64,000 nucleotides of DNA. It comes from Rugalucina vietnamica. Lineage: Eukaryota; Mollusca; Bivalvia; Lucinida; Lucinidae. Under the pieces are notes generated by a model that saw only the letters and a list, made by a program, of their open reading frames with translations, was not told where the DNA came from and searched no databases. How positions within the stretch are numbered: the first letter of the stretch is position 1; every line of letters starts with the position of its first letter. Shown one piece after another: positions 10,501 through 40,500 of the stretch. A program made the translations under genes and the position numbers. Where the stretch lies: the NCBI GenBank assembly GCA_964017185.1, contig OZ024880.1:35864329-35928328 (forward strand), in the 5' to 3' direction.

Positions 10501-13500
10501 CATGCATTTGTATGGGGAAAGTTAGTAAAATGTAATTAAATGGGGGGAAACTTGCTGGGAATATGCAAATGGACAGATCTTCTTCTCTGAAACCACTTTG
10601 ACAATCAAAGCTAAACTTTATGTGGAGCATCGTTAGGAAAGGTGAGTGAAAGCTAATATAAATGGTCCAGGTCATATAACCAAGATGGCCACCATGCCTA
10701 TAAATAGTAAAAACCATTATAAATCTTCTTCTTCATAACCAGAATGCCTTTGATTTTGAAACTTGGCCTGAAGCATCAATGAATACAGCTCTACAAAGTT
10801 TGTATAAATCATGACCCTGGGATGGCCTTGACCTATTTGACGGCAAGGTCAGCTTAGGTTGCATATCCCAGTTCTCAGGTGAGCGTTTACAGGACCATTT
10901 GGTACTCTTGTCTTAAATTGCTTCTCAAAACAGAAATAACTGCAGAATGGCAGCCAAAGAATGCATTTAGGCTTGCACCATAGTGCTTGTTATAGCCCCG
11001 CTTTGGAAAAGTGGGGCTATACTGGATTCACCCTGTCCTTCCGTGGTTCCGTGATTCCGTCATTCCGTCTTTCCGTCATTCCGTCTTTCCGTCATTCCGT
11101 GAACATTTTTGCATTTTGTTTCCGCTCAATATCTTAAGAACAAATTGACAGAATCTGACCAAATTTTGTTAGCACATCAACATTGACAACATCTAGCTTG
11201 GGATTGTAGCCCGTCATTTTTTGCAAAATTTTGATAGAGTTACGGCCCTTGATTAACGTCAGAATTTTGTTTCCGCTCAATATCTTGAGAACGAATGGAC
11301 AGAATCTGACCAAATTTCATATGCACATCAGCATTGACAAGATCTAGCTTGGTATTGTTTCCCATCATTTTTCACAAAATTTTGACGGAGTTACGGCCCT
11401 TGATTGACGTCATAATTTCGTTTCCGCTCAATATCTTGAGAACTAATTGACAGAATCTGACCAAATTTTGTATACACATCAACATTGACAACATCTAGCT
11501 TGGGATTGTTACCCGTCATTTTTCGCAAAATTTTGATAGAGTTACAGCCCTTGATTGAAGTCAGAATTTTGTTTCAGCTCAATATCTTGAGAACAAATTG
11601 ACAGAATCTGACCAAATTTTGTATGCACATCAGCATTGACAAGATCTAGCATGTGATTGTTGCCCATCATTTTTCACAAAATTTTGACAGAGTAACGGCC
11701 CTTGATTGACGTCATAATTTCGTTTCCGCTCAATATCTTGAGAATGAATTGACAGAATCTGACCAAATTTTGTATACACATCAACATTGACAACATCTGC
11801 TTGGGATTGTAGCCCGTCATTTTTCGCAAAATTTTGATAGAGTTACATCCCCTGGATTAACGTCAGAATTTTGTTTCCACTCAATATCTTGAGAACGAAT
11901 TGACAGAATCTGACCAAATTTTGTATGCACATCAGCATTGACAAGATCTAGCTTGGTATTGTTTCCCATCATTTTTAGCTCACCTGAGCCGTCAGGCTCA
12001 CAAGGTGAGCTTATAGTATACCCATGCTCCGTCGTCCGTCCGTCCGTCCGTCGTCCGTCCGTCCGTCGTCCGTCGTCCACCATTTTCAAAGATCTTCTTC
12101 TCTGAAACAGCTTGGCCAATCAAAGCCAAATTTTACATGAAGCATCTATGGGAAGGGGGAACCAATTTGTATATAAATAATCCAGGTCACATGACCAAGA
12201 TGGTCGCCATGCCCATATATGGTAAAAACCCTTCAAAAATCTTCTTCTCCGGAACCACTGGACCGATTTCAACCAAACTTGGCATGAAGCATCGATGACT
12301 CAAGTACTACAATGTGTATATAAATCATGACCTTGCGGTGACCTTGACCTATTTTATGGCAAGGTCAACATAGGTCGCCTTTGCATTTGAATGGGAAAAA
12401 TTGTTAAATTGTCATTTAAAGGAAAAATCTTGCAGAAAATGAGCAGTAGGACTGAATATTAATGATTCTGAAAAAAATTGGGCACCAGGGGCTCATCCGC
12501 CCCCACCCCGGGGCAATATACATGTATATTATCATAATCACTCAGGCGAATAAGCACACAAAAGAGGACCATTTTTGGTCCTCCTTCAGCTTAATTGAAT
12601 AATTGGACCAACACTTCATTAACACAGCAGGCACTGGACCCCAACCAGTTGAGACTGATTATTTTATTACTCAAAGATGGCTGAGAAAGACAAGGAATTC
12701 ATTAACATAAGAATCAATCTCTTATCCAGAAAATTCAACATCACTCTGAAACAATGATAATTGTGTGAATAAAAAAACAAACTTTTTTTTTTTTTTTTTT
12801 TTTTGGGGGGGGGGGTGGGGGGGAGGGAGGGGGCATTTTTCCAAGTATGTACACAGCTGGGATCAGCTAAGTTTTGACAATCCCCATGCAAAAATGAAAT
12901 TTTAAGCATAAAAACAATTAGCATGAATATCAAACAAAAATTAAAATAAAAACTTAGTTCTTTGCTAGAACGGGCGGGTTGTGATTTGTTGAACAGCCAT
13001 TTCACTTCTATCAAAGTTCACACAAACATGAAAAGTAGGTATCAATATGTCACATTTATATGCGACATTTGGGAAATGTGACATCTGTTCAATACTTTTG
13101 GAGATTGTATTTTACTCTCGATTTTAAGGTTTAACATGTGATGAATTTGCATATCCTATCAGTGCAGATCTTGTATTTAGTTTCACATTGAAGAAAATTG
13201 GTACCAAAGATTCACATATGAGCCTGTGCATGAGAAAACCAGCAATTTGGGTTCTGACCAGGTCTGACACAAACCAGCCTGTACAGTCACAGAAGCAGGC
13301 TAGAACCTTGAAATTTTGGATTTAAAACGAAGAAGGATTATACTATCCGTGCAGCGAAAACAAAGGTGCTGATCCGCTGTGTAGTTAGTGCACAGATGAT
13401 CTGTGGCTTTGTTATTGTTTGTTTTCTCACTATTATTTGTATATGTGAATGTGGGTATACATAACTGACCAGTATGAATTTACCCAATGCATGAAGAAGT

Positions 13501-16500
13501 GGTAAAGATCTTCCTTAGTAGTTTTAAAACAAATTAGTGGAGCAAATATCATGGGCTATCTTTCAAGGGGGTGGTCTATGGAGTACCACATTTGTTTCTA
13601 TATACCAAAATGTTCGTATTGGTCTGTAGTTTTAAAATCCAGCGTTTGCCACCTTGGCAAACCTTGCATAACTCCAGTATTTAAGATGGCGTCCAAGATG
13701 GCTGCCATTTCTTAAAATCAACCCCTATACAAAAATACATCATAATTTTCAGGTATTTGTATTGTAATGGTATTTTACTGCCCCATTTCATGTAAGAATG
13801 ATTTATTTGTCTATTTAGAGTAAAGAACCTGACAGTTTAGGTACAACAGTTGTAAAAATCATATTTAAATTCACAAATGCACGTGCCCAAGGTTTTTCAC
13901 TTCGGAATGTTTGTTTAATGGCTCATTATTTATGATCAGATAGTTATGGCTGCTATTTTACTTCTTTTCTATCAACTATGATATTTTTAAAGATTTTATA
14001 AAATTGTTTTTATATATAATATTCATGCTTAAAAACAGGTTTTAGACATCCAACCCAACACGGAAAAAACAACAAAAAGTACGTATTTTCCTATACAAAA
14101 TACGCTCTAAAATCTAATTTGTTATTGATTCTATATACCATAGTGTTTGTGTTGCTCTTGGTTTGTAGCATAAAAAGACAGTGTCTGCCATCTCTGTAAA
14201 ACACAAGATAGCTCCAGTATTCAAGATGGCATCCAAGAAGGCCGTCAAAATTTACAATTTTGAAAAAATGTCACATATGTCCCTTGACTTTTGTTTAGAA
14301 ACAAATATGCTTAAATTGAGCTATAAACACTTAGAGTTATCTTATTATTGGTATTTTCATGTGTTTTCCATTGTTAAAACTACATTATGCATATATATTC
14401 TAGATATGAATGGAGTAAGGTCTCACTGACAAGGCAAAAAAGAACAAAAAATACATATTTTCCTATACATTATAGGCTCTTGAATCGTGATTGTTATTGA
14501 TTCTATATACCAAATATTTTGTCTTGCAAGCTTTTTGAAGGTATGAAGGTTTTAAATCCAGCGTTGGGCCATCCTTAAATGATTCTTTGTTTGCTGTGCT
14601 CCTACCCATCAATTTTAGTGTGGGTAGGTAGGTAGGTCATTTTTTTTTTTTTTGAACCAGAAAAATATCTTTATAATTTCCTGTATTAGTAGATGTATAT
14701 GGTTCAAAATAGGATATATTGAAGTTAAAACAGTATAATAAAACATTGTCAGAACATAAAAAGGTTTTGGAAAGAATAATTTTGTGAAAATGAATCCTTG
14801 TTTTTAGATTTTTGAAAAAAAAAAAATATTTTCCTCAAAATGGCCATAAAATTTTTTGGGTAGGGCCAATTTTGGCGGGTAGGTAGGAGCACAGCAAACC
14901 AACAATTTTTTATGGTCGGCCTTGGCCGCCTCTGCGAACCCAGCATAACTCCGGTATTCAAAAGGGTATCCAAGAAGGCCGTCAAAATATAACATTTGGA
15001 AAAATAAGCCGCATGTGTCCTTTAACCTTTGTTTACTAACAAAACAGTTAAAAAAGCTTAAACACTTAGATCTATCTTTTTAAAAATATTTTCATGTATA
15101 TATTTCTTTGTCAATATTACATAACGCATACAAATCTAGAAATACATGGGGTAAGGGCTGGAGTATGTTTGAACAGATGCAACTTAAATTCCTTTTAATA
15201 ATCTGAATCACTGTAATTTTCCTCTGTCAACATGCCTGAAAAGATAGAATGCACATTTGTGTATATAACTACATGTACATTAATTTCTGACATTTATATA
15301 TCACAGTGTATGGTTGTCGACACATAGAGCTTGTGCAGTATTCATTACTCATTTCTTTACGTTAGCATACAGCATATAGCATAGTCAAATTCAATAGCTC
15401 TGGAGCTGCAACTGATAGTGTTACCAATAATACTAAGCATTTTATTTTATCATTCATTGTCCAATTCAAATCTAAAGTCTGATGGTGATTTCAGTTCTTA
15501 AATATAGTGCAAACCATTCCGCCAAATATACAGTTGATAGACACACCTCAGACAATGAAACCCGAAACTGTTATCTGTCGAGGTAGCTTTTTTAGCCATC
15601 AACAGTATAGCCTTCTCTGCGCACAGTGAGTTTTTGTTACGAACTTAGACCACCTATGGTCCTCCGAATGTTCTAAATCTTCACGTAGATGGTGCAGATC
15701 TATATTCGTTTCAGGACCCTGCATAATGTGATAACAAAGCTAAATGAAAATAACAATCAGGAAATGGCGCAATCAGAACGATATAGGTCATTGCATGTTT
15801 GGTTAGTTTACATCTACTGCCTTTTTGTTTTTATCAAAGTTATCGGTAACTCCCAGTATAAGCATACCCCCTGATTTCTGACGTAATTTCTGAAGAGACG
15901 GTTCCACTGAGGGAGTGTTAGCTTGTGTGCTGATGATAAAACTCGTCTCATTTCAGGCTATGTAATCGTATATATCGAAGATAAGCTATTTGTTAAATTA
16001 AATAGTCTACTCCAGATTTGATCATGTACAACAAGACCTACATGTTTGGGGTATGCAATAGAAATAGCTGCTTTTGTAATATTACAAGCAACTTTAAGAC
16101 AGTGCAAGTCTACTGAAGCTCAGCCCATATGTCTGAAGCATTAGCAAATCTTTCATTGCTCACACTTGAAGCCGACCATCTGTCTAGTACAGTAAAATAT
16201 CTTGAAAGGCTTGCAATGGTGGCAGATTGATCCATTACAATTTCAATGTTTCTAAGAATTTCATTTATAAAAATACCGATAGTTTTATGATTTATCGTAT
16301 CTTCTGCTATTATTTAAAAGAAGCCTGTGTGTATCATCAGCTGAAATACTTTGGTTTAATTTTCATAGTTGATCAAACATATTCAGCGCTTCAGCCACAC
16401 TGATTCGTACCAAATAAATCCCAATACGTAAATGATAATTTGGACCATAACTAAATAAAAAGGCTCTTTTTATAAGTACCTAATTGTCAATTTAGTTTTT

Positions 16501-19500
16501 CCCACCTCGGCTTTCGGAGTGGAAATTTCTTTCTGATTGCGCATTTTCCTGATCATTGTCTACTTGTACGTTCTCTATATTGTTTGTTTTATAACATTCT
16601 ATGTCATATAACAAGGTACAAGTAGGCAAAGATCAGGAAAAGGCGCAATCAGAAAGAGATTCCCACTCCAAACACCGAGGTGGGAAAAAACCAAACTAAC
16701 AATCAGGCACTTATACCATGAAACATATCGTAAGCCGAATGAGCAGCTATTTTCCCAATAGGTGGCCACCCAGCTTTCCAACTCCAGGTATTTAAATTTG
16801 TCTATTAAGTGGAAAACTACGTATATGATAATTCTGACCATAAATAAACAAAAAGGCTCTTTATATGGATTGTTTTAACATTCTATGTTATATAACCCAG
16901 CTTTCTAACTCCAGTTGTTTAAATTTGTCTATTAATTGGATAACTCAACAACTTGATTTTCGTTCATTATTGAACTTTCATACTCAGCTTTTAGCTTTGA
17001 ACCTGTATCTGCATTTGTAAATGAAACAGAATTGTCCTTAGCATGCTCAGTGTCATAGCTGAATGTTATATTCTAATGTGCCGTTGAGCAAACAACTCTT
17101 TTTACTGCACGTATATTGCTCCAGCAGCAACTAAGTCACCATTTGGAAGGTCCATTAGAACATGTATGTATAGCACTTTGAAGTCATTGCCTTTCTCCGT
17201 TCCTTCAACAACTCTTATAAATACATCAAGTTTACTATCACCAATTGTGCATGCTAACATCGACCAGCTTCCACTTACTTTACTTTCATTTCTAACAGGT
17301 CACAAATCTCGCCACAAATAAGTAATTATTCTTCCATTCAAAATACATGTACTTTGTAGATGATATGGTACTTCTAGGGTTAGTCTAATCATTTCTTATG
17401 TTTGACTCTACCTCTCGACTGTTTTTGCTTTAATGCTCTGATAAGTGGATTTACAGTTCTTATGGCACCACAGTTTGCATAAACGTTGTACATAAATACT
17501 CAAAGCATAATCAGTTAATGAGGAATTAGAACCTACATATGATTATAGTGTCGAAACAAAACAGAACCAGAGTTTGTGAATTACATTTGTAATAAGATTG
17601 CAGAGCTTATGATGTATAAGAAAATAAGTTTTCTATGTTGCTCTTTTTCTTGCCGGGCAAGAAAATTCCACTCTTTTCTAGAATAAATGCATCTGGATCT
17701 TCCTATAACTCAGTTCAAGAAACATAGTTTTGGATATAGCACTGATCATAGCTGGACTCCAAATGGTTATTTCATACTACCTTTGGTATATGTCTATATA
17801 CTTTACTCTCATTATAGCACAAATTGAATATAGCTAACAGAGATTGGTTTGAACCCCAACAATAGTGTTATGGTGTCTGAATAATTTTGTTTTAACAAGG
17901 AAAAATACACATGAAGATAACATTAAGAAAATGTTCTAAGTGTTTTACAACTTGATTTTAGCTTTTTATTACTTAATGAAAGTCAAGGGACATATTTGGC
18001 TCATTTTTCAAAATTCTATATTTTGACGGCCTTCTTGAATGCCATCTTCAATACTGAGCTATCTTGTGCTTTGCAAAACACAGGATTTTATGCTACAAAC
18101 TAAGACTGAGACAATCACTATGGTATATAGAATCAAAAGCAAATAAGATTGAAGAGCATATTTTATATAAGAAAAACATATTTTATGTAAGAAAATATGT
18201 ACTTTTTGTTGGTTTTGTCATGTTGGGTTGGATGTCTAAAACCTGTTTTAAGCATCAAGCTTATATATATAGAAACAATTTCTGCTTCTCTAAAATCTTT
18301 ACAGATATTATATTTGATAGAAAAGAAATAAAAAATCAGCCATAACTATCTGATCATAAATAATGAGCCGTTAAACAAACATTCCGAGGTGAAAAACCTT
18401 GGGCATGTGCATTTGTGAATTTAAACATGATTTTTACAACTGTTTTACCTAAATTATCAGGTTTTTTACTTGAAACATACAAATATATCATTCTTACATG
18501 AAATGGGGCATTAAAATATCATTACAATGCAAACACATGAAAAATATGATGCATTTTTGGAGTAGGGGTTGGTTTAAGGAAACGGCAGCCATCTTGGACG
18601 CCATCTTGAATACTGGAGTTATGCAAGGTTTGCCAAGGTGGCAAACGCTGGATTTTAAAACTACAGAGCAAGACGAACATTTTGGTATATAGAAACAAAT
18701 GTGGTACTCCGTAGACCACCTACTCCTATTTCTAAGCTACTTTTTGAACCATATTTGCTCCACTAAATGTACCAAATTTTTACATGTCATGCTGTGAAGA
18801 ACAAGATTGGAAAAAAAAAAAAAAACACTTGCTATGCGTGTTTTTATCAGTGTGAAGAAATATGCATGAATGCTACATGGAATTTTACTGCATGCACAAT
18901 TTTCATAGGCACATGGATTTTTCTAAATGAAATTCTTAACAATTACTTAGGGGCTGTGAGTGCACGTACACATGTTTGTCGAGTACTGACATTGTATGCA
19001 TACGTAATATTCGCAATGAGCTCCCATGACAGCCTTCATACATCAAAAGCCTGAATATCAAAAATAAACGAGAATAAAAAAAAGAATAAAAAATAAAATA
19101 AAAATAATGACCAAAGAAGGGCCAGCTTAAACTTTTATATTACTTTAGCAACAAGTCCATATGACAAACTACATTTTGGGCACAACAAAAGGGCCCAAAT
19201 ATCGAGTTCAATGAATCATTTTTTTTCATTATGATTATCAAAAAAAAAGAATAATGAACGAACTTCTCATTGCTTCATAAATGTTCCAATGCAACAGATT
19301 CATTTTATCATTAACTCTTTGATTTTGTGATTAAATAAATAAGCAATCCCTTAAATAGAGAAGGAAAACATTTGAGGCTCAGTTTAGTTGAGCAAGAATA
19401 TGCTGACAAAAACTGGAAGATGCTTTTTCTTTATGGCACAGTTGCACAGTTATATTGTGCATCTTATTGCAATCAGGAAGTGGTAACATATAGTACATGT

Positions 19501-22500
19501 CTTACTGACCATCTGCCACTTATCTGCAGGGTAATTAACAAGTTATTGTAAAGCCACAGTATGCCACTGTTTAATCACTATTTTATTACCTTTAATGAAC
19601 TCCTGTTTTTCTGGAAATCAGAGAGATTTTGTTGCTTGTGCAGAAGGGTGTAATATTCAAACATCTTCTTCTCTGAAACCGCTTGGCCAATCAAAGCCAA
19701 ATTTTACATGAAGCATCTATGGGAAGGGGGAACCAATGTATATATAAATAATCCAGGTCACATGACCAAGATAGCCGCCATGCCCATATATGGTAAAAAC
19801 CCTTCAAAAATCTTCTTCTCCAGAACCGGTTGACCGATTTCAACGAAACTTGGCACGAAGCATTGATGGCTCAAGTACTACAATGTGTATATAAATCATG
19901 ACCCTCTGATGACCTTGACCTATTTTACGGGAAGGTCAACATATTAGGTCACCAATGCATTTGAATGGGGAAAACTTTTAAAATGTCATTTAAAGTGAAA
20001 GTCTTGCAGGAAATGGGCAGTAGGACTGGATATTAATGATTCTGAAAAAAATTGGACCCCAGGGGCTCATGTGCCCCCACCCCGGGGCAATATACATGTA
20101 TATTTCCATAATATTCAAACGTCTTCTCCTCTGAAACCGCTTGGCCAAACAAAGCCAAATTTTATGTAAAGCATCTATAGAATAGGGGAATCAATGTGTA
20201 TATAAATAATCTAGGTCACATGACCAAGATGGCCGCCATGCCCATATATGGTAAAAACCCATCAAAAATCATCTTCTCTGAAACCAATAGACTGATTTCA
20301 AGGAAACTTGGCGTGAGGCATCGATGGCTAAAGTACTCCAATGTATATATAAATCATGACCCTGTGATGACCTTGACCAAGTTTATGGCAAGGTCAACAT
20401 GGGTTGCCTATGCATCTGAATTGGGAAAACTGTTAAAATGTCATTTGAAGGAAAAAGCCAACAGGAAATTGGCAAATGGACAGAATATTGAAGATTCTGA
20501 AAAAAGAAAATGGCCCAAGGGCTTCATCTGCCCCTGCACTGGAGTTAAATACCATAATATTCAAACATGTTTATTGGTATATGCAGCTGATCTCAGGTGA
20601 GCGTTTACAGGACCATTGGTCCTCTGGTTCACAAAATTTTGACGGAGTTACGGCCCTTGATTGACGTCATAATTATAGCCCCGCTTTGGAAAAGTGGGGC
20701 TATACTGGATTCACCCTGTCCTTCCGTGGTTCCGTGATTCCGTGGTTCCGTGATTCCGTCATTCCGTGGTTCCGTCATTCCGTGAGCATTTTTGCATTTT
20801 GTTTCTGCTCAATATCTCGAGAACAAATTGACAGAATCTGACCAAATTTTGTACATGCATCAACATTGACAACATCTAGCTTGGGATTGTTGCCCGTCAT
20901 TTTTCGCAAAATTTTGACAGAGTTACAGCCCTTGATTGACGTCAGAATTTTGTTTCCGCTCTATATCTTGAGAACCAATTGACAGAATCTGACCAAATTT
21001 TGTATGTACATTAACATTGACAAGATCTAGCTTGGGATTGTTGGCCATCATTTTTCGCAAAATTTTGACGGAGTTACGGCCCTTGATTGACGTCAGAATT
21101 TCATTTCCGCTCAATATCTTGAGAACGAATTGACAGAATCTGACCAAATTTTGTGTGCACATCAACATTGTCAAGATCTAGCTTGGGATTGTTACCCTTC
21201 ATTTTTCGCAAAATTTTGACGGAGTTACGGCCCTTGATTGACGTCAGAATTTCGTTTCCGCTCAATATCTTGAGAACGAATTGGCAGAATCCGACCAAAT
21301 TTTGTATTCACATCATCATCGACAAGATCTAGCTTGGGATTGTTGACCGTCATTTTTTGCAAAATTTTGACGGAGTAACGGCCCTTGATTTACGTCAGAA
21401 TTTCGTTTCCGCTCAATATCTTGAGAACGAATTCACAGAATCCGACCAAATTTTGTACGCACATCAACATTGACAAGATCAAGCTTGGGATTGTTACCTG
21501 TCATTTTTCGCAAAATTTTGACCGAGTTAACGGCCCTTGATTGACGTCAGAATTTCGTTTCCGCTCAATATCTTGAGAACTAATTGACAGAATCCAACCA
21601 AATTTTGTATGCACGTCATCATTGACAAGATCTAGCTTGGGAATGTTACCCGTCATTTTTCGCAAAATTTTGACGGAGTTATGGCCCTTGATTGACGTTA
21701 GAATTTGGTTTCCGCTCAAAATCTTGAGAACGAATTGACAGAATCCGACCAAATTTTGTATGCACATCAACATTGACAAGATCTAGCTTGGGATTGTTAC
21801 CCATCATTTTTCGCAAAATTTTGACGGAGTTACGGCCCTTGATTGACGTCAGAATTTCGTTTCCGCTCAATATCTTGAGAATGAATTGACAGAATCCGAC
21901 CAAATTTTGTGCGCACATCAACATTGACAAAATCAAGCTTGGGATTGTTACCTGTCATTTTTCGCAAAATTTTGACCGAGTTAACGGCCCTTGATTATAG
22001 CCCCGCTTTGGAAAAGTGGGGCTATACTGGATTCACCCTGTCCTTCCGTGGTTCCGTGGTTCCGTGATTCCGTCATTCCGTCAATCCGTCATTCCGTGAA
22101 CACTTTATTTCCGCTAAATATCTTAAGAACAAATTGACAGAATCTGACCAAATTTTGCATGCACATCAACATTGACATTATCTACCTTGGGATTGTTGCC
22201 CATCATTTTTCGCAAAATTTTGACGGAGTTACGGCCCTTGATTGACGTCAGAATTTCGTTTCCGCTCAATATCTTGAGAACAAACGGACAGAATCTGACC
22301 AAATTTTGTATGCACATCAACATTGACAAGATATAGCTTGGGATTGTTGCCCGTCATTTTTTGCAAAATTTTGACGGAGTTACAGCCCTTGATTGACATC
22401 AGAATTTCGTTTCCGCTCAATATCTTGAGAACGAATCGACAGAATCTGACCAAATTTTGTATGCACATCAACATTGACAAGATCTAGCTTGGGATTGTTG

Positions 22501-25500
22501 CCCGTCATTTTTCGCAAAATTTTGTCGGAGTTACGGCCCTTGATTGACATCAGAATTTTGTTTCCGCTCAATATCTTGAGAACGAATCAACAGAATCTGA
22601 CCAAATTTTGTATGCACATCAACATTGACAACATCTACCTTGGAATTGTTGCCCATCATTTTTTGCAAAATTTTGACAAGAGTTACGGCCCTTGATTGAT
22701 GTCAGAATTTCGTTTCCGCTCAATATCTTGAGAACAAATGGACAGAATCTGACCAAATTTTGTATGCACATTAACATTGACAATATCTAACTTGGGGTTG
22801 TTGCCCATCTTTTTCGCAAAATTTTGATGGAGTAACGGCCCTTGATTGACGTCAGAATTTTGTTTCCGCTCAATATCTCCAAAAGAAATGGACAGAAGCT
22901 GACCAAATTTTGTATGCACATCAACATTGACATGATCTAGCTTGGGATTATTGCCCGTCTTTTTCCCCAAATTTTTGACAGATTTACAGCCCTTGATTGA
23001 CGTCAGAATTTTGTTTCCGCTCAATATCTTGGGAATGAATTGACAGAATCTGACTAAATTTTGTATGCACATCAACACTGACAATATCTAGCTTGGGATT
23101 GTTGCCTGTCATTTTTTGCAAAATTTTGACAGAGTTTTGGCCCTTGATTGATGTCAGAATTTTGTTTCTGCTCAATACCATGAGAACAAATTGTCAGAGT
23201 CTGACCAATCTTTTTTTATGTGCATCGACATTAACAAGATCTAGCCCATCATTGTTTGTCTCACCCTGGCAAAAAGCTCAGAAGCGGGGCTATAGTCAGA
23301 TCCTCTGACAATTCTAGTTGACGTCAGAATTTCGTTTCCGCTCAATATCTTGAGAACTAATTGACAGAATCCAACCAAATTTTGTATGCACGTCATCATT
23401 GACAAGATCTTAGGCTTGGGAATGTTACCCGTCATTTTTCGCAAAATTTTGACGGAGTTGCGGCCCTTGATTGACGTTAGAATTTCGTTTCCGCTCAATA
23501 TCTTGAGAACGAATTGACAGAATCCGACCAAATTTTGTATGCACATCAACATTGACAAGATCTAGCTTGGGATTGTTACCCATCATTTTTCGCAAAATTT
23601 TGACGGAGTTACGGCCCTTGATTGACGTCAGAATTTCGTTTCCGCTCAATATCTTGAGAACAAATTGACAGAATCCGACCAAATTTTGTATGCACGTCAT
23701 CATTGACAAGATCTAGCTTGGGATTGTTACCCATCATTTTTCGCAAAATTTTGACGGAGTTACGGCCCTTGATTTACATCAGAATTTCGTTTCATCTCAA
23801 TATCTTGAGAACGAATTGACAGAATCCGACCTAATTTTGTGCCCACATCAACATTGACAAGATCGAGCTTGGGATTGTTACCCATCATTTTTCGCAAAAT
23901 TTTGACGGAGTTATGGCCCTTGATTGACGTCAGAATTTCGTTTCCGCTCAATATCTTGAGAACAAATTGACAGAATCCAACCAAATTTTGTATGCACGTC
24001 ATCATTGACAAGATCTAGCTTGGGATTGTTACCTGTCATTTTTCGCAAAATTTTGACGGAGCTATGGCCCCTGATTGACGTCAGAATTTCATTTCCGCTC
24101 CATATCTTGAGAACAAATTGAAAGAATCCGACCAAATTTTGTATGTACATCAACATTGACAAGATCTAGCTTGGGATTGTTACCCGTCATTTTTCGCAAA
24201 ATTTTGACGGAGTTACGGCCCTTGATTGACTTCAGAATTTCGTTTCCACTCAATATCTTGAGATTGAATTGACAGAATCCGTCCAGATTTTGTGTGCACA
24301 TCATCATTGACAAGATCTAGCTTGGGATTGTTACCCATCATTTATCGCAAAATTATGACAGAGTTATGGCCCTTTATTGAGGTCAGACTTTCGTTTCCGT
24401 TCAATATCTTGAGAACGAATTGACATAATCAGACCAAATTTTGTATGGGCATCAATATTGACGAGATCTAGCTTGTGATAGTTACCTGTCATTGTTTTTT
24501 TCACCCTGCAAAAAAGCTGAGAAGCAGAGCTATAGTCAGATTCTCTGACAATTCTAGTTAGTCAGAGTAATTTATTTCTTGTGGTCATGACAGAAATGAT
24601 GTTAAAACTTATCAGCTTAGTACTCCGTGGGCCAGGAGGGCTCACCATGCACCCCACCAAGGATCCACTGGGAGTGGTATAACATTGTTCATTGGACCTC
24701 CCTGATTAAGAATCAAGATGTTAACACTCAATATCTTGGTACCGAGACGCCATTTTGGACGGTTTTCAAAATGGCCGCCATGCAAAAATGGCAAAGTGCA
24801 TGTTTTGTATAATAGAACTCTTAAAACTTCTAAATCTCTTACTTTTATGAGCAAAACATACTTGTATAAGTGTCTAGACACCATTTCTGGTGTAAATTTA
24901 TCAAAATTAGGTCTTTACAGGATGGCATACAAGATGGCCGCCACATTGCAAAGCATATTTTACAATTTTTGTTACTTTTTCACCCAAAAATTTTTTTTTT
25001 ACATTTTCACTGACAGTTAAGTAGTTTGGGTCATGAAGAGAGATGCAGGTATTATTTTCATGCTAATTCAACCACTGTTCTGACCCGCCATTTTGGACGG
25101 TTTTCAAGATGGCCACCATGCAAAAATGGCAAAGTGCATGTTTAGTAAAGTAGAAGTGTTAGAACTTCTTATCTGCTTACTTTTATGATCAAAACATGCA
25201 TGTTTAAGTGTCTAAACTCCATTTCTGATATAAATTTATCAAAGTTGGGTTTTAAAATGATGGCATACAAGAAGGCCGCCACATTGAAAAGCATATTTTG
25301 CGATTTTTGTTACTTTTTTTCGCCAAAAAAGCTTTGTTTGCCAGTTTCACTAAAACCTATGTTGTTCGAGTCATTAACAGAGATGCGGATATAATTTTTA
25401 TGCTAATTCAACCATAACAATATTGTATAAGTGTATTTTAGCACAAGTCTATAATCTCCAATTTGCCAGACATTAGCTTGCTGACGTCATTACACAAGCC

Positions 25501-28500
25501 ATATGAAAGCCAAATTTGTTACCTTTAACATTTGTTTATTTCTTTATTTTTTAAAAGAGGATTAGGTAAGGAACATTCACATAAGTATGATTCTTTTTCG
25601 TGTTTGATAAAGTTAGATTATTTCATGTTTTATTGCATCCAAAATGTCTGTCATGCATTAATACAGGATCAATGACAAAATGGTTAAAATATGCCCTTAC
25701 CTTGTATGAGCAAACAAATTTATTCATTTTTCAGTCTATGACTGGCTATATCAATCATTAGCAGACCAAAGAAGAGTAAGTCTGACACAGAGACATAGTT
25801 TTAGTTCTGATACTTGTGGTGGTGATGCAACAGAGACACGTTTTATTTTTAGGGCCAATCAGTAGGTGGGGCGAAAATGGGAGAACCCCGAGAAAAACTA
25901 CCTGACACACCCGCAAGCAGAACTTGGCTTGTCTCACATGTGGCCAGAGCGTGGCTCAAACCCTCACCAGTCACAGCGGTGAGATGATAGAGTGATTAAG
26001 AAACAGCGCTCTTAACCGCTCGGCCACGGCGGCCGCCCACGTTTTATTCACTATCGCAGATGCAAAAACATCAGATTCCATTATTCTGCTTTCAACTGCT
26101 CAAAAATCTAATGAGCATCTTCATAAGCTAAATGTAATGAGCAACCCTAGACTGTTAGAACCAATAAAACAACAAAAAAGATCACATGTATCGGCATCAT
26201 ACATAATATCATTAGCCTTTCACTGAACATTTAACCCATCCATAAACATCTGTCTGGGAGGAGCAACCCGCTAACACAACTCAGATGAAGATCATCTGCT
26301 GGGAAATACACTGTGACTCCAGAATGTATTTTTAAGGAAGGATGGTTAGCAGATACATTTTCCAAATTTGAATATAGTAGAGGTGTCACCATACTTGAAA
26401 CAGCTGAAAAATTTAATAACTGTTCTATTCTTAGAAAAGTCAAAGGTTATGATTTGATTGCACGTGATCATCATCATTATCATCAAAGTGATACGCTGAT
26501 AAAACATTGCCTGTGATTAAGCTTATGTTCTTAAACAAATATGTGTCATTCTATGAGCAGATTTAATTAGTTGTAAGAATCTACCCCAGTAAATATCCTT
26601 TAGCTTCTGGAGGCATTCATTAGGATTTGAGCAGTCTTGAAAGAAGAATAATGGGATCAGATGATTTTACAACTTGAAATTGAATTACACATGTCTCTGT
26701 TACGCCACCACAACCAGTATTAGAATTACAACTACCACCCCTAAAGTCCAATTTACTTATTTTTGGCCTGTTAAGGGTTGATACAGCTAGTCATAGACTA
26801 GGTAAATACCGCAAATGTATGAGTTTGTTTGTTCATACAAGGTAAGTACTTATTTCAACTGTTTTGCTCCTTGACCTTATTGTAGTATTCCGGTTTTATA
26901 GCACTTTAGGTTAATTTATTAAACAGATACTTCCCATTGAATCATTAAACTAGATGTTTAACCATTAACTAATTTTTATCAATTCAAACATCCCACACTG
27001 ACTGTCACCTACCTTTTTTTTATAGAAAATAAACCCTATCTCCTCTTTCAGGCCAGTGAAATTATACAAAATATTCCCGATGCTTATAGTTAGAAAAGTC
27101 CAAAAAGTCCGCAACGCCTATATACCTTTCCCATTTATTTTGAACAAAGACAACCTCTGTTGATTGGACCATTAAATGTGTTCCAGGACATAGTGTACAC
27201 ACATCCAGTTGTTTTGGACAACGAGCAACCTTTTACTCTGTCTGGGGTGAAAGGTAACTTAGGGTTTGATGGTGCAAATTACATGGTATTGAAATAATTA
27301 CCTAACCTTGTGCAACTGCGGTTATTATGCAGATTGACTTGAGATTAATTGTCGGTTGGTAATCGATATACCTATGCGGATAAATCGAAACTTATACATG
27401 TAGCTGCACATTTTTCACATTAATAATGTAAATCGTCCTAATTATCAGAACATTTTGAATCAAGTTGCATCTTTGATCATTTTTCTGTGTGCAGTATTAA
27501 AAATTTTACACCTTGATGAAAGTAGTCATTTATTTAGCATGGTCAGCAAATTGTCAGACATATTGCAGATTATAGGCTTTTTTACACTTGTACAATAAAA
27601 TATAAAAGCTGTTACAAGACTGTTATGGCTGAATTAGCATGAAAATAATAGCTGAATCTATGTTAATGACTTAAACATCATGGATTTTGGTGAAACTAAG
27701 AAAAGCATTTTTGGGGAAAAGTAACAAAAATTGCAAAATATGCTTTTCAATGTGGCGGCCATCTTGTATATCATCATTTAAAGACCTAACTTTGATAAAT
27801 TTATATCAGAAATGGAGTCTAAACACTTATAATACATGCATGTTTTGTTCACAAAGTTAGCAGATAAGAAGTTTTAGCAGTTCTATGTTAATAAACATGC
27901 ATTTGCCATTTTTGCATGGTGGCCATCTCGGAAACCGTCCAAAATGGCGGGTCAGAACAGTGGTTGAATTAGCATGAAAATAATACTTGCATCTCTCTTC
28001 ATGACCCAAACTACTTAACTGTCAGTGAAAATGTAAAAAAAAGCTTTTCGGGGTGAAGAAGTAACAAAAATTAAAAAATACGCTTTGCAATGTGGCAGCC
28101 ATCTTGTATGCTATCATTAAAAGACATAATTTTGTTAAATTTACACCAGAAATGGTGTCTAGACACTCATACAAGTATGTTTTGCTCATAAAAGTAAGAA
28201 ATTTAGAAGTTTTAAGAGTTCTATTATATTAAACATGCACTTTGTCATTTTTGCCTGGCGGCCATCTTGAAAACCGTCCAAAATGGCGTCTCGGTACCAA
28301 GCTATCGAGTGTTAACATCTTGATTCTTAATCAGGGAGGTCCAATGAACAATATTATACCACTCCCAGAGGATCCTTGGGGGGTGCATGGTAAGCCCTCC
28401 TGGCCCACGGAGTATAGGGGCCTAATCACATCGATATCTTCAGGGTACTTTAAGGATGTTCGCTGCCAATGAAAAAGTATTCAAACTTTTTTTCTAACCA

Positions 28501-31500
28501 CTCTTTTTTGATTCCAAAATACAACACAAGACATTTGAAAACAAAATAAATATAGGGTAGTGTGCATTTTTTCAAGCTACAGGCCTCTGAATGAGACCTC
28601 TGAGCACCATGTTTTAAATTTGGTAAAATTAATTTAATTTATAATTCTTTGAAACATACCTGTCTTGAACAAAAATAAACCTAGAATGCTTTCAAAAGTC
28701 ATAATATTTACGTAGCGCAGACAATTTTGGACCAAAAGCATAGAAAAAATTGCAACTTGGAGTGGATGACAAAATTTTACGATTCCTTTTCTAACCCTAC
28801 CCCCATACTTGAAAAGTCGGAAAAAATCAATATTTTGAAATGTACCAAACCCATATTTGTTGATTCAAACTTTTTCTTGTATTTTCACACAACATAGAAC
28901 TTGGTAATATTGTTCGAATAAAAGAAAGAAATATATAGGGTAGTGAGCATATAAGAGAGAACCAACAACTTGAAAATCGCCATTTTCGGCCTTTTTTCGT
29001 CTGTTTTGTTTCTAAAAGCCCATTTCATAAAACCACCTAAAATTTTAAAACCAGCACACCAAAGACACAAAGAATGACTTAGAAGACCATGTACACATAC
29101 ACTGCTGCTAAAATAAATATCGAACTAGTGCAATTAATTCGAAGATGTGTAATATTCAAGTTTAATCTACCCTACCCCCTAAATTTTACTGACAACTAAA
29201 ATTTTCTGAAACGTTGCAGAAAATGGGGTGAAAAAATGAAGTTTCTTAGATTGACAATTTTCATGGCTCATTTGATGCATATTATCAATATGTATCCAAA
29301 TATAAAATATTAGGAAAATATCTGCAACAGTTTACGAGATATTCAAGAAAAGAAAAACCGGAAGTTCCGAAATGTCAAATGTTAGCAGCGAACATCCTTA
29401 AGTCCTTGGCTATCACTTTGAATAAATTATTTGCTAAGTTTTTTTGTGACATGAATATGTCATTATAGCCCCGCTTTGAAAAAGTGGGGCTATACTGGAT
29501 TCAGCCTGTCCTTCCGTTATTCCGTAAATCCGTGATTCCGTGATTCCGTCCTTCCGTGAACATTTCGTTTCCGTTCAATATCTTGAGAATGGCTTGACAG
29601 AATCTGACCAAATTTTGTATGCACATCAACATTGACAAGATCTAGCTTGGGATTGTTACCCGTCATTTTTCGCAAAATTTTGACAGAGTTATGGCCCTTG
29701 ATTGACGTCAGAATCTCGTTTCCGCTCAATATCTTGAGAACGAATTGGCAGAATCCGACCAAATTTTGTTTGCACATCATCATTGACAAGATCTAGCTTG
29801 GGATTGTTACCTGTCATTTTTCGCAAAATTTTTACGGAGTTACGGCCCTTGATTGACGTCAGAATTTTGTTTCCGCTCAATATCTTGAGAACGAATTGAC
29901 AGAATCCGACCAAATTTTGTATGCACATCAACATTGACAAGATCTAGCTTGGGATAGTTACCCATCATTTTTCGCAAAATTTTGACGGAGTTGCGGCCCT
30001 TGATTGACGTCAGAATTTCGTTTCCGCTCAATATCTTGAGAACGAATTCACAGAATCCGACCAAATTTTGTATGCACATCAACATTGACAAGATCTAGCT
30101 TGGGATTGTTACCCGTCATTTTTCGCAAAACTTTGACGGAGTTACGGCCCTTGATTGGCGTCAGAATTTTGTTTCCGCTCAATATCTTGAGAACGAATTC
30201 ACAGAATCCAACCAAATTTTGTATGCACATCAACATTGACAAGATCTAGCTTGGGATTGTTACCCGTCATTTTTCGCAAAATTTTGACGGAGTTATGGCC
30301 CTTGATTGACTTCAGAATTTCGTTTCCGCTCAATATCTTGAGAATGAATTGACAGAATCCGTCCAAATTTTGTATGCACATCATCATTGACAAGTTTAAC
30401 TTGGGATTGTTACCCGTCATTTTTTGCAAAATTTTGGCGGAGTTATGGCCCTTTATTGACGTCAGAATTTCGTTTCCGCTCAATATCTTGAGAACAAATT
30501 GACATAATCAGACCAAGGTTTGTATGCGCATCAATATTGATCTAGCTTGTGATAGTTACCTGTCATTGTTTTTTTCACCTGCAAAAAAGCTGAGAAGCGG
30601 GGCTATAGTCAGATTCTCTGACAATTCTAGTTTGCACTGTTTTTGTCCCGCAGGAGACAGACACATTTGAGTTGGAGCACCTTGAGTTCCGAACATTGGC
30701 ACAGTTTAGTTACCTAGAGCCAGGGTCTATGAAACATCTATACCTTTATCACCATATCTGGTTTGTATCAGGTTCTTGTATAATATGTTGTAAAGATGCT
30801 TGTGTATAATATTGTCAAAGAAGTACTGTTGAATAATAACTTGAAACATGAAAATCAGCCTAGAATATAAAAAAAAATGCATTGTTTTAGCAATAATTGT
30901 AAACAGACCAGCCTTGATCTATTATTGAGTGGGTCATTAATTCCTAGATCGAAACAAAACTTGCTCTGTTAAAAGAAGAAAAAAAAAAAAATTAGCCATT
31001 GATAACTTCTGAATGTGACAGTTTTGAATCTTTGCAAAAGACGCTAATAGCATCGTAAATAATAGGCCTTTAGATATGTAGCAGAACTGGATGGTTTTCT
31101 CATGATTTGGTTTTCATTTCCCCTTTCAGTGGCAGTAAGATGATGTATGGTTTATTTCTGCCCATGTCCAAGAAAGGGACGATATTTGTGGTGGACACAG
31201 TCCGTAGTGATCAGATGCCAAATCTTACAGCACTCTTCAATGCTGAGAGGAATGTCAAGTAAGGCTAAAATTCATGTCTTCAAGACTGTGTCAATGGTAT
31301 GGGGAGAGCAGTGGTGTGTGTGGTTTGTGAGTCGAATCCCTTATCAAGAGGTCGGGGGTTGGAACATCACTGTTGGAACTGTTTGATCAAGACACTTTAA
31401 GGCCCCCCTATAGTACTAGTAATCACAATTTGCATTTACATGTCGGTGAGTGTCCTTATTTGCGTCCCTGCATAAGAAATACAACAACATACATATGCGA

Positions 31501-34500: not shown

Positions 34501-37500
34501 CAGGTAAATGAGTATTCTTATAGTAAGTGTCTTGGTTAGGATGGCCCCTTTGACTGAATAGTTAGGGGCTTTGATTTCATTTACCACAATCATTTGATTA
34601 TTTCTTTACCACATCTGGGGCAGGTTAGAGCCTCACACTGGTGATGTGGAACAGGCCGAGTTCCTTGTGCGGACTCTGTCCCACCTACAAAATTGGCTAG
34701 TCTCATTAAGAGTGAAATAATCTTGAAAGGGACTAATCCGACTACAAACTGAATTTAATTTTTTTTTTTTTTTTGTGTGTGGTTTAACATCCCAGTCAGC
34801 AATTTTTCATTCATGTTGGGACAGAGCTTCCTGGGTATTAACGAGTACTGAAGGGAGTAAATGTGTTTTGCTCAAGGACTCAGGGTAAGTAGGGCATTAA
34901 TTAAACTAGGACTGGAAGAGTGTCCAGTGCTTGCCAAACTTTATTATGTTGGCATTGATAAATTCACCCTCAATTTTCAACAATCTCACTCCTTAAGGCC
35001 TTGAAAACATGAATGCATTATGGAAAATCATGTTTGCCCCTTGTTTTCCAGGCTATGACAGAGCAGTGTAGGTATCTACACATTCCTGTGGGCAACTTGC
35101 CGAAGGACATCACACTGACAGGCTGTGATATTTTCTTTGCCCGTCACCTCAACAAACACAATCATATCCTCTGGAGCTCTCCTACGGAACGACCAGATCT
35201 CGGAGGGAAGGAGGCTGACGATAACAGGCATGGTTCTTTAAGCTTGATAAAATGTATTTCTGCATCATTGCTGTAAACACTATTATATGCAACTAAAGAT
35301 GTTCAACCATTGTGAGACCATTGTGGAAAATGCCATTCTGCTATAGTTGCTATGGGAAAAAAAGTATTGAAAATTTATAAATACCCAGATCTGATGGCTT
35401 GTTACTGTAGGATTTATCTCAGAACCATGACACATGGAATTAATAAAACCCTTTGTGGAGTAATGGTTATGCTACTGGCCTTGAAAACCAGGTGCTGGGC
35501 TTCTCCAATCTTTTGGGGCAATACTCCAAAACGAGGTCCCGCTCCTTATGACCTTGTCTGATGTTTAGTCTTTAAAGAAGAAAGCAACAGCAGAAAGAAA
35601 TCATCACTGTATAGGCCAACAAAGCAGTGGGCGATCAAATTTAATCCCCAAGACTTGTGAATTAACTGGAAAGACATGGAAATTTGGAATTGTAACCCTC
35701 TCTAGATAGTTTTCATGATTTACGATTACATGCTCATATGATGCAATTGACAGTGCTAGATAAAATATTTGAGCAGCGTCATGAGAAAACCAACATTTGC
35801 ATACGCGGAAACAATGGCGCAGATCAGCTTCTTTCTTAATCCAAAATTGCTAGACTCTAGCTATCTTGGTGCTTGTACAGCTCGGTTTGTGTCAGACCTC
35901 ACCTGTTCGGAAACCACAATGTTGGTTTTCTTATGACGTGGCTTGTCCTATACTTCACAGACTGGGTATGGAGTCAGAAGAAACTACATCAACAGAAATC
36001 AACAACCCCGGTGCCTACTCTACCGTGTGTGTAGAACTGGATGTGGCTAGTCTTGCTGTTAATACTATCATTGAAGTAAGTCTCACTATTGGCAGTGATT
36101 CGTTTACTTCTTTCAGAAAAGGTCACATTGTTATAGGCCAGTACTTCTGCTTTCTAATGACTTCATAAGCAGTTTTCATGTTGCAAGTATATAGCTTCCT
36201 TTGGTTGAAGAAGACCCTTAGAAATTTAAGTCACAAATTGCTACTGTTTCTCTGCATGCTACCTTGTATGTTTATACCCCCCGCAAAACGAAGTTTTAGG
36301 GGGGTATACTGTTTTCAGCCTGTCCGTCATTCCGTGATTCCGTGATTCCGTGATTCCGTGACTCCGTGATTCCGTCATTCCGTCATTCCGTCAACATTTG
36401 GACATCTTTGCTGAATAACTTGAGTAGCTTTTGCCTGATTTGTTTCAAATTTTCACCACACTTGCACCATCAGACAATACATGTGTGGTATGAATTTAGG
36501 GGCCAAAGGGTCAGTATTGCAAGAGTTATGGGACTTTTTAAGTCTTCCTATAACATGTTTGCCATAGTACTGAAAGTACATACTTTGTGAAATCAACTCC
36601 TCTTACAGCTTTTAATGTTTCCTTTTAATATTTTGCTGATATGTTTCAGATATATTGCAGATGTGCATGAACAATTGTCATGCTGAAAAAATAATTTTTG
36701 ACAAATTTACAGCATTTTTAACTTAGCAAATTTTCTATAATTGCTTATATTCAATAATGGTTGGTAGTGCATACTTTGTGAAATCAACTCCTCCTAGGGC
36801 TTTCAGTGTTTCTTTTCAGTACTTTGCAGACATGTTACAGACATATTGAAGATGTGCATGAAGAATTATAATGCTGAAAAAATAATTTTTGACAAATTTA
36901 CAGCATTTTTTAACTTTGCCATTTTTCGACTATTGCTTACATACATACTTTGTGAAATCAACTCCTCCTAGGGCTTTCAGTATTTCTTTTCAGTACTTTG
37001 CAGACATGTTACAGACATATTGAAGATGTGCATGAAGAATTATAATGCTGAAAAAATAATTTTTGACAAATTTACAGCTTTTTTAACATTGGCATTTTTC
37101 GACTATTGCTTACATACATACTTTGTGAAATCAACTCCTCCTAGGGCTTTCAGTATTTCTTTTCAGTACTTTGCAGACATGTTACAGACATATTGAAGAT
37201 GTGCATAAAGAATTATAATGCTGAAAAAATAGTTTTTGACAAATTTACAGCAATTTTTAACTTAGCCATTTTTCGACTATTGCTTACATACAATAATGGT
37301 TGGAAGTGCATACTTTGTGAAATCAACTCCTCCTAGGGCTTTCATTGTTTCTTTTTAATTCTTTGCAGATTTGTTCCAGATATATTGAAGATGTGCATGA
37401 AGAATTTTTATGCTGAAAATTTTAGTTTTGACAAATTTACAGCTTTTTAAACTTGGCCAATTTTGACCATTTCTGCTTATATTCAATTATGGTTGATAGT

Positions 37501-40500
37501 ACATACTTTGTGAAATCCAACTCCTCCTGGGGCTTTCAGTAATTCTTTTCAATACTTTGCAGACATGTTACAGACATATTGAAGATTTGCATAAAGAATT
37601 TTATTGGAGAAAAAATAATTTTTGACAAATTTACAGCATTTTTCAACTTAGACATTTTTCAACCATCGCTAATATACAATACGGCTGGTAGAGCTTACTT
37701 TATGAAATCAAGTCCTCCTAGTGCTTTCATTGTTTCATTTGAATTCTTTGCACACTTGTTCCAGATATATTTCAGATGTGCATGAATAATTCTTATGCTG
37801 AATAATTTATTTTTGACAAATTTACAGCTTTTTTTAGCATAGCCAATTTTTGACCATTTCTCATGATAAATAATGATTAACAATAATTTTACTCCCTGAG
37901 CTTTCAGTATATTATTTAATACCTTACAGACATGAGTCAGACATTCGGAGGATTTTCATGAAGGATTATAATATTGAAAAGATATTTTTGACAAATGTTT
38001 TGCATGTTTGACTTAAAGGAAGTTATTGGCCTTAGATAATTTTGCGGGGGGTATACTGAAAGCCTTGCTTGCAGCCAATTTCTAGTTGGATTCTAGTGTT
38101 CATGAAAAGGTGAAATTTTAGTGAATTTATCTGGAACTGAAAGAGTTGTTCAACATCTTAAAATCTTAATTTATTGAGTTATAAAGTCAACCAAAAAGAA
38201 GAAATGGCCTCAGTTGGCTTTCTGTCAGATCCTGGATATTTTTTTTTGATGTTGTAAATTTTGTATATGAAACAAAGTTTAAACCAACCAAACATAAAAT
38301 ATTCTTCCAGTCCTCCCATGTGAATGATCAGGAGGGAGCCAGTGCCGTCAGTTTTGACACGATGCCCCAGTCCTCCCTGGAGGAGATGGTTCAGGGGCAG
38401 GGGGCGGCAACCATGATGACAAGTTATGATGAGACTGCGCTGTGTTCGGCAACCTTCAGGATACTGAAGAGTATGGTGCAGGGCTGGGTTAGAGATGTTA
38501 CGGCCTACTCTAACGTGTTTGCTGATAACCAGATTATACATTTCTACAGGCAAGTAACAAAAAAATTGTCAGAACTTTGTAAAAAATGTAGACATTGATA
38601 ACCAGGTAGATCAATATCTGTGTTTTTTAGCCTCTTTATAGTGTCGATAAGTGTATAAACTCTACAATTTCAAATGCTATTTGTTGTTTTATGATGATAT
38701 AGATGCCAATATAATGATTAAGGTGTAGCTTTGTATTCATGTGATTATACCCCCCGCAAAACGAAGTTTTAGGGGGGTATACTGTTTTCAGCCTGTCCGT
38801 GATTCCGTCATTCTGTCATTCCGTGATTCCGTCATTCCGTCAACATTTTGACATCTTTGCTGAATAACTTAAGTAGTTTTTGCCGGATGTTCTTCAAATT
38901 TTCAACACACCTGCACCATTAGACAACACGTGTGATATGAATTTAGGGGCCAAAGGGTCAGTTTTGCAAGAGTTATGGGACTTTTTAAACCTATACATAG
39001 AATGTTAGCCATAGTGCTAATAGTGCATACTTTGTGAAATCAACTCCTCCTACAACTTTCAATATTCTCTTTTGATACTTTGCAGACATGTTCCACACAT
39101 ATTGAAGATGTGCATGAAGAAGTATTGTGCTGAAAAAATGAATTTTGACAAATTTACAGCATTTTGAACTTAGCCAATTTTCGATAATTGCCATATTCAA
39201 AAATGGTTGGTAGTGCATAGTTTGTGAAATCAACTCCTCCTAGGGCTTTCAGTATTTCTTTTCAGTACTTTGCAGACATGTTCCACACATATTGAAGATG
39301 TGCATGAAGAATTATAATGCTGAAAAAATAATTTTTGACAAATTTACAGCATTTTTCAACATAGCCATTTTTTGACCATTGCTTATATACATAGAATGTT
39401 TGCCATAGTGCTAATAGTGCATACTTTGTGAAATCAACTCCTCCTACAGCTTTCAATATTCTCTTTTGATACTTTGCAGACATGTTCCACACATATTGAA
39501 GATGTGTATGAAGAAGTATTGTGCTGAAAAAATGAATTTTGACAAATTTACAGCATTTTGAACTTTGCCAATTTTCGATAATTGCCATATTCAAAAATGG
39601 TTGGTAGTGCATAGTTTGTGAAATCAACTCCTCCTAGGGCTTTCAGTATTTCTTTTCAGTACTTTGCAGACATGTTCCACACATATTGAAGATGTGCATG
39701 AAGAATTATAATGCTGAAAAAATAATTTTTGACAAATTTACAGCATTTTTCAACATAGCCATTTTTTGACCATTGCTTATATACATAGAATGTTTGCCAT
39801 AGTGCTAATAGTGCATACTTTGTGAAATCAACTCCTCCTACAGCTTTCAATATTCTCTTTTGATACTTTGCAGACATGTTCCACACATATTGAAGATGTG
39901 TATAAAGAAGTATTGTGCTGAAAAAATGAATTTTGACAAATTTACAGCATTTTGAACTTTGCCAATTTTCGATAATTGCCATATTCAAAAATGGTTGGTA
40001 GTGCATAGTTTGTGAAATCAACTCCTCCTAGGGCTTTCAGTATTTCTTTTCAATACTTTGCAGACATGTTCCACACATATTGAAGATGTGCATGAAGAAT
40101 TATAATGCCGAAAAAATAATTTTTGACAAATTTACAGCTTTTTTCAACATAGCCATTTTTTGACCATTGCTTATATACAATAATGGTTGGTAGTTCATAG
40201 TTTGTGAAATCAACTTCTCCTAGGGCTTTCAGTATTTCTTTTCAATACTTTGCAGACATGTACCACACATATTGAAGATGTGTATGAAGAATTATGATGC
40301 TGAAAATATAATTTTTGTCAAATATACAGCAATTTTTAACATAGCCATTTTTTGACCATTGCTTATACAGTAATGGTTGGTAGTGCATATTTTGTGAAAT
40401 CAACTCCTCCTAGGGCTTTCAGTATTTCTTTTCAATACTTTGCAGACATGTTCCACACATATTGATGATGTGCATGAAGAATTATAATGCTGAAAAAATA

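Follow-up and report, generated by a model that had tools for sequence, protein, structure and literature searches.

Two nested DNA transposons, the inner one with a gene-like middle, interrupt a tandem array in the bivalve Rugalucina vietnamica

The window analysed here is a stretch of 64,000 nucleotides from the lucinid bivalve Rugalucina vietnamica (contig OZ024880.1, forward-strand positions 35,864,329 to 35,928,328), and all positions below are numbered from its first base. A tandem array of ~456-base-pair (bp) units in the window halts at 12538 and restarts at 19651, with the sequence TAAT on each side (12535-12538 and 19651-19654). The insert between them (12539-19650) was described in an initial annotation, made from the window alone, as a single mobile 7.1 kb element with CAC ends, inverted arms and a spliced gene, splitting an R2 element. 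With "R2" taken as the ~456-bp unit, the interruption of the array was confirmed. When the flanks are fused with a single TAAT, their alignment to other units runs straight over the junction (199 of 200 bases, 90%, gapless at 20013-20211), and thus the insertion with its 4-bp duplication is real. Comparison with copies elsewhere in the genome (1.09 Gb searched) showed that one DNA transposon is nested in another. Our overall reading, to which we assign a probability of about 0.78, is that the two transposons are independent and that the middle of the inner one is the relic of a gene that has been under scant coding constraint, if any, since the spread of the family.

The outer element (~1.88 kb) is present as a left part (12539-13534), which starts with CACTCAGG, and a right part (18769-19650), which ends with CAGAAGGGTG. 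Between these parts lies the inner transposon (13535-18765, ends TAGTGGAGCAAATAT...ATATTTGCTCCACTA), flanked by the duplication AAT, whose left copy (13532-13534) closes the left part of the outer element and whose right copy occupies 18766-18768. In both of the other outer copies that were fetched (L029 and L030), the shell is uninterrupted at the exact join, which reads AAAACAAATGTACC in these copies and AAAACAAAT, inner element, AATGTACC in the window. At the 20 genome places fetched as matches to the inner middle (21 copies with that of the window), no match to the shell in rows of at least 80 columns was found beside the inner element, one interspersed repeat excepted. The TAAT duplication and the CAC...GTG ends were correctly recognized in the initial annotation but belong to the outer element. 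Although this duplication and these ends are real, one 7.1 kb unit that ends in CAC and has its arms inside is extremely improbable given the shell at 0 of 20 inner copies and the inner part in 0 of 2 shells, and it was rejected as the origin of the insert; for a later joint movement of the pair, no second copy was seen. Because separate copies of both parts and the uninterrupted shells were observed, the order of insertion is the outer element into the array, the inner element into the outer one and small repeats into the inner one. The ~1.88 kb element thereby created the TAAT duplication and the inner element the AAT duplication, with repeats of 358 bp and 157 bp entering later.

The outer duplications are 4 bp long in all three copies (TAAT in the window, TATA and TATT in L029 and L030). 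When 40 of the 126 candidates for the right shell were scored, 55 stretches matched it, with 77-98% identity if the window itself is set aside. An interspersed repeat that resembles many other places of the window lies inside the outer element at 13216-13417. Beyond CAC, the outer termini form an imperfect inverted match of ~26 bp, which was equalled in a fraction of 0.026 of random pairs with CAC forced and of 0.20-0.25 at other lengths tried. No Pfam match was obtained in six frames of 12539-19650; a non-autonomous outer copy would hold no transposase, and we know of no Pfam model for the Chapaev transposase. Chapaev elements of the CMC group have CAC...GTG termini and duplications of 3-4 bp (PMC4079192). 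The outer element is similar in its CAC/GTG termini (window, L029 and L030) and its 4-bp duplications, and differs in that no recognizable transposase was found within the ~1.88 kb and in that the inverted match past CAC is imperfect.

The inner element is mobile and hairpin-armed, as the initial annotation proposed for the whole insert, and multi-copy. Its left end is present in 18 of the 20 fetched copies (BLAST match start at window 13527-13535) and its right end in 13 (18765-18768). The ends are TAGTG...CACTA, with the longer forms TAGTGGAGCAAATATCATGGG and ATATTTGCTCCACTA and the end pair TAGTGGAGC...GCTCCACTA. Both ends are present in 15 of the 21 copies (window included), and 14 of these are flanked by 3-bp duplications; among mismatched pairs, 10 of 210 agree. 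Genome-wide there are 151 exact occurrences of the 24-bp left end and none of the reversed control. Complete copies without extra insertions measure about 4.8 kb and are 0.2-5.2% apart. L016 and L019 differ by 0.2%, yet their flanks and duplications are unlike, indicating a recent move. At one place (L031, C1:23548090-23553600), ~30 bp of the element's left end adjoins an exon resembling, by eye, a low-density lipoprotein receptor class A repeat.

The ~0.9 kb inverted arms of the initial annotation exist, as the termini of the inner element rather than of a 7.1 kb unit. The left arm (13535-14391, plus strand) and the right arm (17878-18765, minus strand) align over 901 columns with 82% identity, and tandem units related to the left arm extend to ~15160. 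The arms are terminal in all 12 complete copies (835-903 columns, 82-87%), with the top match starting from base 1 in nine and from base 36 in three. They are built of tandem units of ~370-520 bp and contain one to three copies of the motif AAGATGGC per arm, with none in the middle, in 12 of 12 copies. This motif, which we take to resemble a YY1-type site, is common to three repeat families, namely the ~456-bp units, the inner arms (window positions 13683, 14223, 18041 and 18588) and the arms of a second long-armed element at 24621-28414 (24931 and 27758). In the window copy, the left arm has received a 358-bp insertion whose ends are inverted (14564-14921); most copies lack it, and none of 20 other left ends showed it. 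A 157-bp insertion that is half of a palindromic repeat (16611-16767) is also lacking in most copies. At 17562, the copy alignment shows that the window copy is without ~108 bases held by most others.

The second long-armed element has arms at 24621-25427 and 27613-28414 (811 columns, 90%) with ~330-bp tandem units, ends TACTCCG...CGGAGTA and the sequence TAG on both sides. Its arms match the inner-element arms above shuffles in three of four arm-arm comparisons, a weak hint that the two elements may be akin.

EnSpm/CACTA transposons have CACTA...TAGTG ends, a short duplication, repeats near the ends and, in some members, gene fragments. The inner element is similar in its short duplication, near-end repeats and gene-like fragments; this assignment was rejected since TAGTG...CACTA is the reverse order of the CACTA...TAGTG ends. 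PIF/Harbinger transposons create TWA duplications. The same duplication is given for Chapaev3 (PMC4079192). The inner element shares the 3-bp length with both groups, and both were rejected because its duplications do not conform to TWA (TAA accounts for 3 of 14, TTA for none) and its ends are not CAC. The inner element does show the foldback hallmark of long terminal inverted repeats with internal tandem units. Tetris of Drosophila virilis is a foldback-type non-autonomous transposon, and the tandem units of foldback arms may bear extra transposase sites (PMC4079207). In both Tetris and the inner element, the long terminal inverted repeats contain tandem repeats and the middle is without intact genes, no autonomous copy was found for either, and each has an arms-only relative (DAIBAM for Tetris; L035, which retains arm parts only, for the inner element). 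They differ in the duplication (3 bp in the inner element vs. 8-10 bp) and in the tandem units (~370-520 bp vs. ~220 bp), and unlike Tetris the inner element has a middle that is common to its copies and contains a gene-like relic (PMC4079207). Word searches of the open literature found no paper naming the inner or the outer element by title or abstract start.

The middle matches all 40 places scored by DNA (of 5119 first-look candidates) and ~150 scored places by protein, the protein searches covering the best 150 of 440 candidates for segments S4+S5 and the best 150 of 290 for S6. The segments recur in other copies, and therefore the middle is not the intron of a single locus, an outcome that the initial annotation had considered. 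Coding-like segments are present on the minus strand of 15599-17833 as described there, at a level only weakly above chance. This strand has nine stop-free stretches of at least 45 codons vs. 4.8 ± 1.8 in shuffles (fraction 0.026), compared with eight on the plus strand (0.074); the longest stretch (0.124) and the count of at least 60 codons (0.164) are ordinary. The segments, all on the minus strand, are S3 (17411-17542), S4 (17105-17299), S5 (16935-17072), S6 (16113-16313), S7 (15961-16096), S8 (15806-15952) and S9 (15602-15739). S4 is the best of them; by composition it ranks in the top 1.9% of 689 stretches of the window. The closely spaced cysteines (CKLWCHKNC, in S3) and the sequons of the initial annotation are also present and led to no family. 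Its proposed splice join scores high, with the donor in the top 7% of all GT sites of the window and the acceptor in the top 10% of its AG sites by weight matrices, and ranks first of 27 in-frame joins tried, which is suggestive of splicing rather than proof.

No Pfam family reaches the cut-off for the middle segments, no PDB sequence matches them with E below 0.68, and no fold match was found at E 0.001, with VIA-align Z below 8 throughout. The Pfam scans function on this DNA, since they detected plus-strand exons matching DUF1744 (PF08490) at 35043-35234, 38305-38577 and 41952-42164. We take DUF1744 to be the C-terminal part of the DNA polymerase epsilon catalytic subunit. Modelled as a single sequence without an alignment, S4 (65 residues) gave a fairly confident four-stranded beta-sheet with a mean predicted local distance difference test score (pLDDT) of 80. 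A middle that never coded, with open stretches arising by chance in inherited AT-rich DNA, would fit the ordinary length of the longest stretch in the window and in the majority sequence of the copies, the lack of a family match, the near-neutral frame counts given below and the poor model of S6 (mean pLDDT 56). However, the excess of open stretches is confined to the gene strand (0.03-0.05 vs. 0.92-0.99 on the other strand; the excess is weaker in the shuffle test of 15599-17833), the G+C content by codon position is gene-like in S4+S5, S7+S8 and S9, and S4 yields its beta-sheet without an alignment. We therefore regard a non-coding origin as unlikely. The middle is probably a decayed gene, which may descend from a transposase or from a host gene that was taken up before the family spread; this is the likeliest origin because of the fairly confident S4 model.

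The majority sequence of nine copies is interrupted in the middle by stops and frame changes. In this sequence, S4 continues into S5 in one frame over one stop (122 codons) and S7 into S8 over one stop (95 codons), and the longest stop-free stretch is ordinary (fraction 0.36). In six scanned copies, the longest open frame (117 codons) lies in an arm, and the maximum in the minus-strand middle is 89 codons. A TAG stands at the S4|S5 join in most rows listed in the protein search. Diversity per 150-bp bin ranges from 0.018 to 0.069, and the middle (0.030-0.069) shows no reduction relative to the arms. With each change counted once, the frames of the initial annotation gave 91 synonymous and 257 non-synonymous changes, compared with 74/274 and 84/264 when the frames were shifted; S7 was summed in its originally proposed frame, though the majority sequence suggests another. 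Per-copy normalized ratios are 0.35-1.48 over the segments and 0.93 in one arm. The initial suggestion of a functional accessory protein, possibly a secreted one, or of a captured host gene that is still alive is thus very improbable: recurrence of the segments over copies, the high-ranking splice join, a slight synonymous excess and a few copies without stops in S4+S5 speak for it, whereas the majority sequence is broken, diversity is equal in the middle and the arms, no family or fold was found and the window copy holds two large later insertions.

Several observations weigh against a relic in a non-autonomous family. The proposed frames show a slight synonymous excess, and the per-copy ratios of S7 and S9 are 0.35 and 0.39; any trace of constraint left in the middle is slight at most. 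Among the matches listed, C11:7075511 and C9:49070676 read without a stop through the full 119 residues of S4+S5, a third copy does so from residue 10 to residue 112, and most copies have an open S6, and thus some copies have escaped the breaks. S3 lies at the 88th percentile of composition, among the least protein-like stretches. L015, with both ends present, is without a matching duplication, and no autonomous partner or transposase was found, so that movement in trans is our deduction.

Both protein lists consist of near-identical copies plus a few at 68-75% protein identity. Among the matches listed, S4+S5 relatives at that identity retain the stops (C3:58683244, C5:49003578, C5:41326100 and C14:38918062) and, judged by sequence, are older relatives of the inner family. 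A second inner subfamily (for example C3:9618600 / 9619314 and C9:21301147 / 21301854) has an S4 match limited to residues 1-72 without stops and an S6 with one TAG; by eye, ten listed places of this group, open over these residues, have a neighbouring S6 bearing TAG. Thirteen listed S6 rows share identical scores, as after a recent burst.

The inner element is presumably a non-autonomous, foldback-like DNA transposon moved in trans. Since no copy was found to encode a transposase, one from elsewhere should act on the ends; it would recognize the conserved termini and cut and paste the element, and the tandem arm units would perhaps supply extra binding sites. A more specific reading, which we consider doubtful, is that the inner element represents an unclassified cut-and-paste lineage with TAGTG...CACTA ends, unspecific 3-bp duplications and long tandem-unit arms with AAGATGGC, possibly shared with 24621-28414, and that its middle preserves what is left of a transposase not yet described or of a captured gene whose family cannot be recognized.

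Elsewhere in the window, arrays of a 151-bp unit lie beside TTCCGTGA-like microsatellites (11113-11976, 20796-24493, 29562-30540 and 61586-62315), and a ~670-bp module (28448-29118) has an inverted repeat at 62373-63045 (94%). They resemble mollusc "pearl"/Helentron-type elements.

The reading of this locus from a single window, as an armed element with a spliced mystery gene, gives way to two nested transposons once copies are compared. The inner family is recently mobile and foldback-like, and the repeat-rich genome of this animal contains its exact left end at least 151 times. The missing transposase and the gene relic of the inner family are now open to direct search.

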